Positions 10,801-60,302 of a stretch of 64,000 nucleotides of DNA are shown piece by piece. The DNA comes from a virus. Every line of letters begins with the position of its first letter. Position 1 is the stretch's first letter. A program made the position numbers and the translations under genes. Under the pieces are notes generated by a model. That model was not told where the DNA came from, searched no databases, and saw only the letters and a list, made by a program, of their open reading frames with translations. The stretch lies in IMG/VR virus record IMGVR_UViG_3300034102_000864, positions 1 to 64,000 of that record, one strand, 5' to 3'.

Positions 10801-11131
10801 TGATGCTATATATCAATATTCTCTAAGTACTCCGTGGGACATTAGTACCACATCTTCTGATACTAAATTATTTAATGTCGGAGGTCAAGAGACAAATGCA
10901 AATGGACTTTATTTCAAACCCGATGGCAAAACTGTTTATATAGTTGGATCTACTGGTGATGCTGTGGTTTCTTATGACTTAGATATTCCTTGGGAGATAT
11001 CATCTTTTAGTAAGTCTTTGAATGTTGCTACACAAGAGGTTGGTTCTACAGGAGTTAGGTTAACTGAGGATCTATCAAAATTATACATTGTTGGATCTGC
11101 AAGATTGAATTCTTATGATTTTCTTACTTAA
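7886..11131 (+). CDS. Multi-propeller repeat virion protein with 20 blade-like repeats (1081 aa)
   Basis: About twenty repeats of 45-55 residues. Each is built as DGTK(V/M)Y(V/M)(V/L)G...(D)(T/A)(I/V)(Y/H)Q(Y/F).L.TAW(D/N/Q)(V/I).TASY, the DG-plus-strand pattern seen in WD40/YVTN-type beta-propeller blades. A higher-order repeat is visible: blades 2-4, 8-10 and 15-17 are nearly identical triplets (IYQYTL, then VHQFNL, then VYQYTL), so the chain looks like three related propellers of about 6-7 blades. Propellers on phage fibres usually mediate carbohydrate or protein binding; here that is inference. It lies in the fibre operon with a 1-base overlap upstream. No signal peptide or catalytic motif is seen. 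Confidence 0.75.
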   Translation: MVRKLIGNANQISGIYELDDSASLSNKLDNLSRYVYDNKSTPLIPGNIGNITDLYISPDETKLYVIDSSADTIYQNSLSDGYIFSDYNNLKSFLLSGQDGSPQGVYIGAAGTAMYIVGNTNDTIYQYTLSTAYDVSTISYSGISSLISARETNPTDITFSDDGTKVYVVGQTAAGAGLISLGEYVHQFNLTTAWNVGTAGYSTSFYVNPQTSTAPNGLTIGAGGTAMYVNNSTTVYQYTLGTAWQVNTASYTNKSLLVSGQDTTQSSIYFKDDGTKLYTVGAINDNVYEYSLGIPWDISTASYDTEFFYVGAQDATSTGLYIAPDGKNVYVTGSTSSRVNQYPLRTAWDLKTVDVTPSLFIGFLEGTAQSLYFKPDGTSVYILGSVGDRIYQIPLNTPWDLRTSGISSISAYPVAAQDITSVGVYIGAAGTAMYIVGSTSDTIYQYTLGTAYDVSTASYSGISSVISARETDPTDITFSDDGTKVYVVGQTGVGLPVASGEYVHQFNLSTAWNVGTAGYSTSFNVSQESAPTGVYIGAAGTAMYVVGTANDTVYQYTLGTAWQVNTASYTNVSFSINTQDAGPQSIYFKDDGTKMYMLGSTNDAIHQYSLSTAWNVSTASYENKSLYVGAHEGTSNGLYFSPDGTSIYIVGSGNDRVVRYPLSTAWDISTWVQSFYVGTQETVPNAIYFKPDGTIVYILGTSQDTIFQYSLTTPWDLTTASYTNKSFSITLFEVTPTGLHFSSDGTRVYVVGNTNDRVHLFKLATAWDISTAFNPYNIKSFSVNSQDTSPQGVYIGADGTAMYIMGDTNNTIYQYTLGTAYDVSTASYSGISSNITTRETVPQDLTFSDDGTKVYVVGQAAAGAGLIAGAEYVHQFNLTTAWNVGTAGYSTSFYVTTQTSSTPAGLTIGAGGTAMYVNNSSNVYQYTLGTAWEVNTSSYTSKTFVISTQDAGPQSIYFKDNGTKMYMLGSINDAIYQYSLSTPWDISTTSSDTKLFNVGGQETNANGLYFKPDGKTVYIVGSTGDAVVSYDLDIPWEISSFSKSLNVATQEVGSTGVRLTEDLSKLYIVGSARLNSYDFLT

Positions 11132-35906: not shown

Positions 35907-36557
35907 ATGAATTTATTATCCAAAGTTTTGATTGCACCAAAAGTCATCAATCAGGAAGGTATTGATGCACTGGTAAATCATATGAAAACTTCAAAAACAG
36001 AAGACCTTTCAGTATTTGATCCAGACAAATCCAATCAGACACGAGGAACTGAATGGATTACAGATAAGAAAACAAGAGATACTCAAATTGCTCCAATTGA
36101 ACCTGTATTTCCACAGGTTAACGAATTGATGCATCATATTGTAAAGCAAGTTATCAATCCTTTTTATCAGTTTGAAGTTGATAGTTCAGAAGTTCCACAA
36201 CTACTCTGCTATGGTGTAGGAGGACACTACCAACCTCATATTGATGGTGAAGGTATATGGACTGCACCAGATCAGACACAACTTTGGAGAAAGACAGTAG
36301 ATCGTGATTTGTCTATGGTCTTATATTTGAATGATGGATTTGAAGGTGGAGATTTTGTATTTCCAGACCTTCATATTCATATTCGTCCTGAACCTGGACT
36401 TCTTGTATGTTTTCCTTCTAATAGGTATTATCGTCACGGTGTTGAACCAGTCACCAAAGGAAACCGATATTCAATGGTAACTTGGATGACAGTCAAAGGA
36501 TTTGAGAGTATGGAGACACAATGCAATAATCTCAAATCTAAATATGGGGTGTGTTGA
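35907..36557 (+). CDS. Prolyl-4-hydroxylase-like 2OG-Fe(II) oxygenase (216 aa)
   Basis: Clear P4H-type metal site: H111-x-D113 in GGHYQPHIDGEG and H177 in YYRHGVEPVTKGNR, with R187 placed to bind the 2-oxoglutarate carboxylate. RDLSMVLYLNDGFEGGDFVFP is the core strand-turn-strand. The family hydroxylates prolines or related side chains in proteins. It lies at the end of the island after three propellers with Pro-rich loops and three group-transfer enzymes, which makes these loops plausible substrates (inference). The -35 box of the next promoter overlaps its stop codon. Confidence 0.85.
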   Translation: MNLLSKVLIAPKVINQEGIDALVNHMKTSKTEDLSVFDPDKSNQTRGTEWITDKKTRDTQIAPIEPVFPQVNELMHHIVKQVINPFYQFEVDSSEVPQLLCYGVGGHYQPHIDGEGIWTAPDQTQLWRKTVDRDLSMVLYLNDGFEGGDFVFPDLHIHIRPEPGLLVCFPSNRYYRHGVEPVTKGNRYSMVTWMTVKGFESMETQCNNLKSKYGVC

Positions 36558-36583
36558 CAAAAACTTTTAATTACCCTATAATA
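36555..36583 (+). promoter_or_regulatory. Consensus sigma70-type promoter (TTGACA, 17 nt, TATAAT)
   Basis: TTGACA at 36555-36560, 17-nt spacer, TATAAT at 36578-36583: a perfect consensus. The -35 box overlaps the TGA stop of the oxygenase gene. The expected start is near 36589-36590, leading into the candidate small RNA. Confidence 0.85.
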
Positions 36584-36589
36584 TCCAAG

Positions 36590-36686
36590 TCTTCAACATC
36601 CTTGTAACTTTGGGAATGAAGACCCTCTCTGTGGTGGGAGAGGTGAGTTGGTGGTTACTAAGGAGGGTTTATATCCTCCTTTTTTT
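36590..36686 (+). ncRNA. Candidate structured small RNA (~97 nt), no known family
   Basis: Bounded by a perfect promoter and an intrinsic terminator and able to form three hairpins. These are GTCTTCA (36590-36596) with TGAAGAC (36617-36623), 7 bp perfect; CCTCTC with GAGAGG (36624-36643), 6 bp; and the terminator stem at 36660-36681. The only ORF inside (28 codons from ATG 36616) has no SD and runs through the terminator. It could be a free regulatory RNA or a short attenuated leader of the glutaredoxin operon. The sequence does not resemble any RNA family known to me. Confidence 0.55.
36660..36686 (+). terminator. Intrinsic terminator after candidate small RNA
   Basis: 7-bp stem AAGGAGG/CCTCCTT with an 8-nt loop, followed by a run of T to 36686. 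Confidence 0.85.
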
Positions 36687-36720
36687 CTATTATAAATTAT
36701 AATAAAAATAGATAACAATT

Positions 36721-36963
36721 ATGAATTTCACAGTATACTCAAAAGAAGATTGCCCATATTGCTATAAAGTTAAACAAGTTCTTGAATTGACAGGAAGTAA
36801 CTTTGTGGTTTATAATTTAGGGGAACATTTTACCAGAGATGAGTTTTATGCTGAGTTTGGTGAAGGATCTACCTTTCCACAGGTTATTTGTAATGACAAG
36901 AAATTAGGAGGATCAGTTGACACAATCAAATTCCTCAAGGAACAACAAATCATCAAATCCTGA
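36721..36963 (+). CDS. Glutaredoxin (80 aa)
   Basis: Classical short glutaredoxin: redox motif CPYC at residues 14-17 (KEDCPYCYKV), TFPQVICNDKKLGG glutathione-site segment, and full length for the class. It reduces disulfides with glutathione; in T4-like phages it commonly supplies electrons to ribonucleotide reductase. The 3' end overlaps the next small ORF. The upstream terminator separates it from the candidate sRNA, so part of its transcription probably arises from the A/T-rich gap at 36690-36720. Confidence 0.9.
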   Translation: MNFTVYSKEDCPYCYKVKQVLELTGSNFVVYNLGEHFTRDEFYAEFGEGSTFPQVICNDKKLGGSVDTIKFLKEQQIIKS

Positions 36964-38405: not shown

Positions 38406-38468
38406 ACTCTCATCGTTCATCTGGAAATCCAGACGGAAGTAAGACAACTCGGAACGGGTCGTTCATCT

Positions 38469-59746: not shown

Positions 59747-59775
59747 TTGACACCAACCCCCATTTACCCTATAAT
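59747..59775 (+). promoter_or_regulatory. Consensus sigma70-type promoter flanked by inverted repeat
   Basis: TTGACA 59747-59752, 17-nt spacer, TATAAT 59770-59775. A perfect 8-bp inverted repeat ACCCCCAT (59756-59763) / ATGGGGGT (59776-59783) brackets the -10 region. Drives the 66-aa ORF at 59801. Confidence 0.85.
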
Positions 59776-59800
59776 ATGGGGGTAATCAACGGAACACCAA

Positions 59801-60001
59801 ATGAGCACCGCACAAGAGACCGTCCAAGGCATTGTGATTGATGTATGCAGCAAGTCTTTTCTTCTTCTGAGTGATCAGGGAAACACCAAGACTGTACAGT
59901 GCGACAATACCGAAGAGTTTATGAACGTGTTGGAAGTTGTTACTGCTCAACTTGATCCTGAGCAGATTGAGTATGCTGACCTTGCCATTTACGGTGAGTG
60001 A
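59801..60001 (+). CDS. Small acidic conserved-type protein (66 aa)
   Basis: MSTAQETVQGIVIDVCSKSFLLLSDQG, then helices EEFMNVLEVV, LDPEQIEYADLAIYGE. A small beta N-terminus plus helical tail. Preceded by a consensus promoter and GGAACACCAA leader. Early expression is suggested; function unknown. Confidence 0.7.
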   Translation: MSTAQETVQGIVIDVCSKSFLLLSDQGNTKTVQCDNTEEFMNVLEVVTAQLDPEQIEYADLAIYGE

Positions 60002-60010
60002 TGCTATAAT
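59982..60010 (+). promoter_or_regulatory. Sigma70-like promoter (TTGCCA, 17 nt, TATAAT) next to late core
   Basis: TTGCCA 59982-59987, 17-nt spacer, TATAAT 60005-60010. ATAAATA follows directly at 60011-60017, so this may be a dual early/late promoter for the Phd-like ORF. Confidence 0.75.
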
Positions 60011-60032
60011 ATAAATACCGAAAAAGAAACGA

Positions 60033-60206
60033 ATGGAAGTTTTCACAGTGGAAGAGTTTCAAGAGAGGTTTGACGAACTCATTGAGAGAGTGGAAAACGG
60101 AGAGCAATTAGGTATAATTAATGAGAATGGGCAGGCAGCAGTTATGATGCCTGCAGATGATGACTTTGTACGAATACACACTGTGTGTAATAACGAAGCA
60201 TCATAA
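60033..60206 (+). CDS. Phd/YefM-like antitoxin-type protein (57 aa)
   Basis: ATG 60033, TAA 60206. MEVFTVEEFQERFDELIERVENGEQLGIINENGQAAVMM follows the N-terminal fold of Phd/YefM antitoxins (a strand, SEF.-type helix, ...V..GE...I...G..AAV). The usual toxin-binding C-terminal tail is very short and no toxin gene adjoins it. It could be a stand-alone regulator that binds the host toxin or its own promoter. Confidence 0.6.
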   Translation: MEVFTVEEFQERFDELIERVENGEQLGIINENGQAAVMMPADDDFVRIHTVCNNEAS

Positions 60207-60214
60207 ACGCAGAA

Positions 60215-60302
60215 GCGAGTGAGACTTGGTAGTCAGAGGAGTCTTATAAACTCTTTCCGCCAGATTAGCGGCTTTGACCTGGTTCGAATCCAGGCACTCG
60301 TA
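60215..60302 (+). tRNA. Atypical class-II-like tRNA, anticodon loop CTTATAA (UAU?)
   Basis: Acceptor GCGAGTG/CACTCGT (first pair G-T), T-arm CCTGG-TTCGAAT-CCAGG, anticodon stem GGAGT/ACTCT with loop CTTATAA (anticodon UAU by position), and a long variable arm with CCGC/GCGG. The D-arm is GACT-TGGT-AGTC, with only a 4-base loop. A UAU anticodon with a long variable arm is unusual, so the amino acid is uncertain, and this may be an eroded tRNA. Confidence 0.65.

Follow-up and report, generated by a model that had tools for sequence, protein, structure and literature searches.

Organization of the locus and its promoter

The window, a 64-kb stretch that forms part of a 76.6-kb viral record, carries on its + strand a gene for a 2OG-Fe(II) oxygenase at 35907–36557 (PF13640, E 2.9e-17) followed by a gene for glutaredoxin (NrdC) at 36721–36963 (PF00462, E 9e-12), the ATG of which is at 36721. 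A candidate small RNA (sRNA) unit occupies 36554–36686 on the same strand, as are all its features described below; it sits, as the original prediction had placed it, in the gap between these two genes, with its -35 box overlapping the oxygenase stop codon (36555–36557). The perfect TTGACA-N17-TATAAT promoter that had been claimed was recovered with 12 of 12 matches in a promoter scan at 36554–36582, the -35 box TTGACA at 36554–36559 and the -10 box TATAAT, after the 17-nt spacer, at 36577–36582, so that the true start is 36554 and the 36555 given earlier was one base late. Perfect TTGACA-N16..18-TATAAT sites are rare in the 64 kb (three, vs. 0.15 expected by chance). On the 3' side of the unit, at 36691–36699 (+ strand), lies TATAAATTA, a T4-late-promoter-like element that probably serves the glutaredoxin gene; TATAAAT follows the T run in 35 of the 38 relatives described below (96% column identity) and resembles the T4-type late promoter established for T4-like phages.

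Other elements of the window were recorded in passing. Within the glutaredoxin gene, at 36787–36816, there is a second perfect promoter (TTGACA-18-TATAAT). Its hexamers are conserved in all but three of 29 distinct homologues (26 of 29), and this may, judged by such conservation, be a real internal promoter. A glutamine riboswitch aptamer (RF01739, 42 bits), a known cyanophage element, was found at 38412–38460, and at 59747–60302 a perfect promoter is followed by a DUF7294 gene, a gene for a Phd/YefM-like antitoxin (just under the Pfam cut-off) and then a tRNA-Ile(TAT) gene.

Predicted RNA and its fold

With its start set from the -10 box and its end from the T run, the predicted sRNA extends from 36589 to 36686 and is about 98 nt long, a small correction to the 97 nt proposed originally; the covariance-model match on the window RNA covers 36587–36684 with 110 bits. 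The predicted fold has an energy of -37.5 kcal/mol (z = -3.27), and none of 200 dinucleotide shuffles was as good. The three hairpins and the T run that had been described are all present, but their stems, counted earlier as 7, 6 and 7 bp, are of 7+4, 7 and 9 bp in our fold. Hairpin 1 (36589–36623), with compensatory changes at its pairs, exposes a conserved 9-nt apical loop, UGUAACUUU, at 36603–36611, and hairpin 2 (36624–36643) carries in its loop the sequence GUGGUG (36631–36636), the first GGUGG-type motif. A linker at 36644–36659, single-stranded according to the alignment, holds the second motif, UUGGUGGU, at 36648–36655, and is followed at 36660–36686 by an intrinsic terminator, AAGGAGGGT-TTAT-ATCCTCCTT plus the T run, in which the sequence of the predicted stem is swapped across the family while its pairing is kept.

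Conservation and covariation among relatives

A blastn comparison with the phage collection gave no near DNA relative of the unit in its entirety. Viral contigs fetched by the two flanking proteins yielded 38 distinct versions of the unit, counting that of the window, and the addition of DNA-pattern searches widened the set to 101 distinct phage loci. In the protein-selected set mean identity was 98.1% for the -35 box and 99.5% for the -10 box vs. 69% for the spacer and 72% for the six bases that follow the -10 box, and it rose again to 93% over hairpins 1 and 2 with the linker and to 98% in the T run. Since the promoter hexamers and the RNA are conserved while the spacer is free to change, selection acts on the hexamers and on the RNA. 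Across the loci with enough upstream sequence, the promoter was kept in 92 of 95.

In a structure-blind MAFFT alignment of hairpins 1 and 2, 98.1% of cells were paired and 53 two-sided changes were counted, as compared to 11.1 in shuffled alignments and at most 16 when the structure was slid along the alignment. The wider family of 37 members gave 96.3% of cells paired and 98 two-sided changes vs. 36.0 after shuffling, figures to be read with the fact in mind that this alignment was fitted to the model and leans towards its structure; here hairpin 2 had two-sided changes at all five counted pairs. Pairing is likewise kept among the variants of the terminator stem, which include GGAGGG/CCCTCC, GAGGAG/CTCCTC and GGGGGC/GCCCCC besides others. 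The check for covariation in related phages that had been proposed was thus borne out, in that about 100 relatives keep the promoter hexamers, the compensated hairpins and the terminator, but not the small ORF considered below, and the small-RNA reading is, as far as comparison of sequences goes, strongly supported.

Conserved unpaired motifs

Three unpaired parts of the RNA are conserved: hairpin 1 has its 9-nt loop (YUGYRWCUU), hairpin 2 has GUGGUG in its loop, and a second GGUGG lies elsewhere. In most clades this second copy is in the linker, as UUGGUGGU or AAGGUGGAAC, whereas one clade (L388, L389, L399, L400, L401 and L417) has it in the terminator loop. On average each RNA has 1.95 copies of GGUGG vs. 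0.17 in shuffles, a conservation that is partly circular because the DNA patterns that widened the set required GTGGTG; the protein-selected set shows the motif free of this bias, and the copy in the terminator loop falls outside the pattern. A short repeated motif that shifts its place yet keeps its number suggests a binding site, and we consider the hairpin 1 loop and the two GGUGG motifs to be putative binding sites, most likely base-pairing seeds. As a separate observation, TGGTGGT, a motif that the sRNA shares, occurs in the window 101 times vs. 8 expected, a 12-fold excess almost entirely on the + strand, with many of the sites at 26.7–35.8 kb in glycine-repeat, tail-fibre-like genes.

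Distribution and genomic neighbours

In the cultured freshwater phage S-SRM01 (MW015081), whose host is Synechococcus KCZYC6 (PMC8557907), an unannotated copy of the RNA lies at 10975–11078 before the glutaredoxin gene (96 bits, E 1.2e-19), and a text search of the paper on this phage found no mention of an sRNA or non-coding RNA (PMC8557907). The marine T4-like phages S-PM2, Syn9, P-SSM2, P-HM2, S-RSM4, S-SM1 and ACG-2014d gave no match, or weak matches at chance level only. No host-encoded copy was detected in 312 picocyanobacterial genomes (14 + 299, one common to both) by a model search that had no positive control there. The unit had no match in Rfam 15 in a gathering scan, and the best hit of a permissive scan was on the other strand (E 0.34). 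The cyanophage literature, searched mostly outside subscription papers, contained CfrI, abiF, wcaG, manA, glnA and PhotoRC-II and nothing resembling the present RNA, although an earlier description is possible. We class the RNA as a new family, found in freshwater T4-like cyanophages, of a kind that is already known, namely the phage-encoded sRNA.

A glutaredoxin gene is directly downstream in 75 of the 101 distinct loci, mostly at +30 to +42 where the distance was measured. The RNA is not restricted to this neighbour, nor is it always upstream of the glutaredoxin gene class: 14 of the 101 loci have downstream a 727-aa protein with no Pfam match and three an HNH-like ORF, while at single loci the RNA precedes other ORFs (two), a GIY-like ORF or a collagen-like fibre gene, the names HNH-like, GIY-like and collagen-like having been given by eye, with no family match behind them. 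One 96.8-kb contig bears two copies of the RNA 42 kb apart, neither of them directly before a glutaredoxin gene. The copy with the promoter precedes a small gene and a Phd-like antitoxin gene, resembling the DUF7294/Phd arrangement at 59.8–60.2 kb of the window; the other, without such a promoter, lies behind a short ORF and before a collagen-like fibre gene. On contig G310 (L454) the RNA gene precedes a cassette like that at 59747–60302 of the window. The variety of neighbours and the two-copy contig argue against a leader dedicated to glutaredoxin and for an RNA working in trans.

Variants of the unit were also seen. At 11 loci, such as L189 and G310:58913–59013, a version of the RNA lacks the promoter; it lies 22 nt 3' of the end of an 89-aa ORF, counted from the stop codon, and is possibly a 3'UTR-derived form. 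Two apparently decayed copies before glutaredoxin genes (L054:2876–2968 and L086:4040–4136) have lost the promoter, and in them the motif is lost or reduced.

Searches for targets

No convincing target emerged. At the psbA starts of picocyanobacteria ACCACC was not consistently present, and phage mRNA leaders from the window and from S-SRM01, assessed by duplex energy and motif counts, scored little or no better than with shuffled queries. In S-SRM01 ACCACC and CACCAC were slightly over-represented ahead of start codons (4 and 6 genes vs. 0–1 in control stretches), numbers too small to build on. The complement of the hairpin 1 loop had three scattered one-mismatch matches in 13 host genomes, no more than its reversed control, and these were not conserved. 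Hairpin 2 is near-complementary to the motif of the host sRNA Yfr1 in one lineage, which includes S-SRM01, with energies of about -15 to -19 kcal/mol and z mostly from -2 to -2.8. We rejected the RNA as a Yfr1 sponge: the complementarity does not extend across the family (mean z -0.9), and scrambled versions of the motif do equally well.

Interpretation

Cumulatively, the occurrence of the same folded RNA in about 100 related viral sequences makes it very probable that this is a real regulatory RNA, and we have good confidence, irrespective of the seed mechanism proposed below, that the unit is the gene of a trans-acting sRNA. Comparative sequence analysis establishes its promoter, its structure, its non-coding nature and its independence of neighbouring genes. 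We propose that the sRNA would be transcribed from the consensus promoter by the RNA polymerase of the host, directed by the main sigma factor, which suggests that transcription probably occurs early in infection, and that the transcript would end at its own terminator as a non-coding RNA of ~98 nt with three hairpins, presumably acting in trans. Its contact sites would be the GGUGG pair and the 9-nt apical loop of the first hairpin, all kept unpaired by stable stems. That these sites are base-pairing seeds for mRNAs containing CCACC is the most likely mechanism, put forward tentatively; next, and possible, is that they bind a protein or a further RNA, or serve as a decoy for it. With the TATAAAT element 3' of the T run, the early RNA would be insulated from a later glutaredoxin transcript.

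The decoy is a sub-case of the trans reading, in which the GGUGG pair would titrate a host protein or sRNA with an architecture similar to that of Csr/Rsm or anti-sRNA systems. The identical short motif, displayed twice and shifting between the linker and the terminator loop, is consistent with it, as is the near-complementarity of hairpin 2 to the Yfr1 motif in the lineage of S-SRM01. Against this, GGUGG differs from the GGA motif of CsrA, no GGUGG-binding protein of cyanobacteria is known to us, and pairing with Yfr1 failed to hold across the family or to exceed that of scrambled motifs, so that we regard titration as a minor possibility. Its more specific form, in which a multivalent GGUGG RNA would sequester a host RNA-binding protein or sRNA and so reprogram or disarm the cell early in infection, is likewise a minor possibility.

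Were the RNA instead a cis-acting, riboswitch-like leader or attenuator of the glutaredoxin gene, it would respond to some signal and its terminator would control read-through into that gene; the frequency with which glutaredoxin is directly downstream, the fact that the RNA ends in a terminator and the true riboswitch for glutamine in the same window all speak for this. We nevertheless consider it unlikely: the same RNA precedes unrelated genes, neither copy on the two-copy contig is directly before glutaredoxin, the terminator stems vary freely with no conserved alternative pairing seen by eye, and TATAAATTA 3' of the T run is likely to provide glutaredoxin with a start of its own. The change of neighbours would also fit a promoter/terminator cassette of the PeSL type, an element known in T4-like phages (PMC4503421), conserved only for recombination and for insulation of the neighbouring genes. 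Such a cassette would need a promoter and a terminator and nothing else, whereas in the present unit it is the intervening RNA that is conserved: hairpins 1 and 2 covary and the loops are maintained, but the spacer and the 5' bases drift. This makes the cassette explanation very improbable. Coding for a small protein is the least credible of all. The window does have a 28-codon ATG frame, and a comparable one occurs in some of its close relatives, but the ATG is missing in 21 of 72 unique relatives and indels in the remainder leave frames that range from 8 to 35 codons, so that the ORF is missing or frameshifted in most relatives; the idea is largely refuted, and the earlier statement that no ORF is supported holds in the sense that the frame exists and is not conserved.

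The RNA family is widespread in environmental viral contigs and has strong covariation support, and few phage-encoded trans-acting sRNAs are known for cyanophages. Because it occurs in a phage that is in culture with its host (S-SRM01 and Synechococcus KCZYC6), what a phage sRNA does when cyanobacteria are infected becomes directly testable.

Comparison with known systems

The cyanobacterial host sRNAs Yfr1 and Yfr2 resemble the RNA described here in being short and in having a conserved motif, but we found no sequence relation to them, and complementarity to Yfr1 was confined to one lineage and did not go beyond controls. PeSL cassettes of T4-like phages similarly combine an early promoter with a stem-loop at points of gene shuffling. 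In these the stem-loop comes first and the early promoter follows, with no conserved product between them; in contrast, the present unit has the order promoter, RNA, terminator, and the RNA is its conserved part, which sets it apart from a PeSL so defined. CfrI of cyanophage S-PM2 is also a non-coding RNA of a T4-like cyanophage, although it is antisense, ~225 nt in length and linked to psbA (PMC12197685), while the new RNA is ~98 nt long and intergenic and has no credible copy in S-PM2. The glnA, wcaG, manA and PhotoRC-II elements are likewise structured RNAs in intergenic regions of cyanophages, but each is associated with particular classes of gene, and their typical place is the 5' UTR (PMC2864571, PMC9964418), whereas the RNA reported here comes with a promoter and a terminator of its own and is found beside varied genes. 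The closest likeness is to the trans-acting sRNAs of phages (reviewed in PMC12197685), which are also short stand-alone phage genes with their own promoter and terminator and a structured, non-coding product; from these the new RNA, which has no Rfam match, differs by its occurrence in freshwater T4-like cyanophages and by its two GGUGG motifs.
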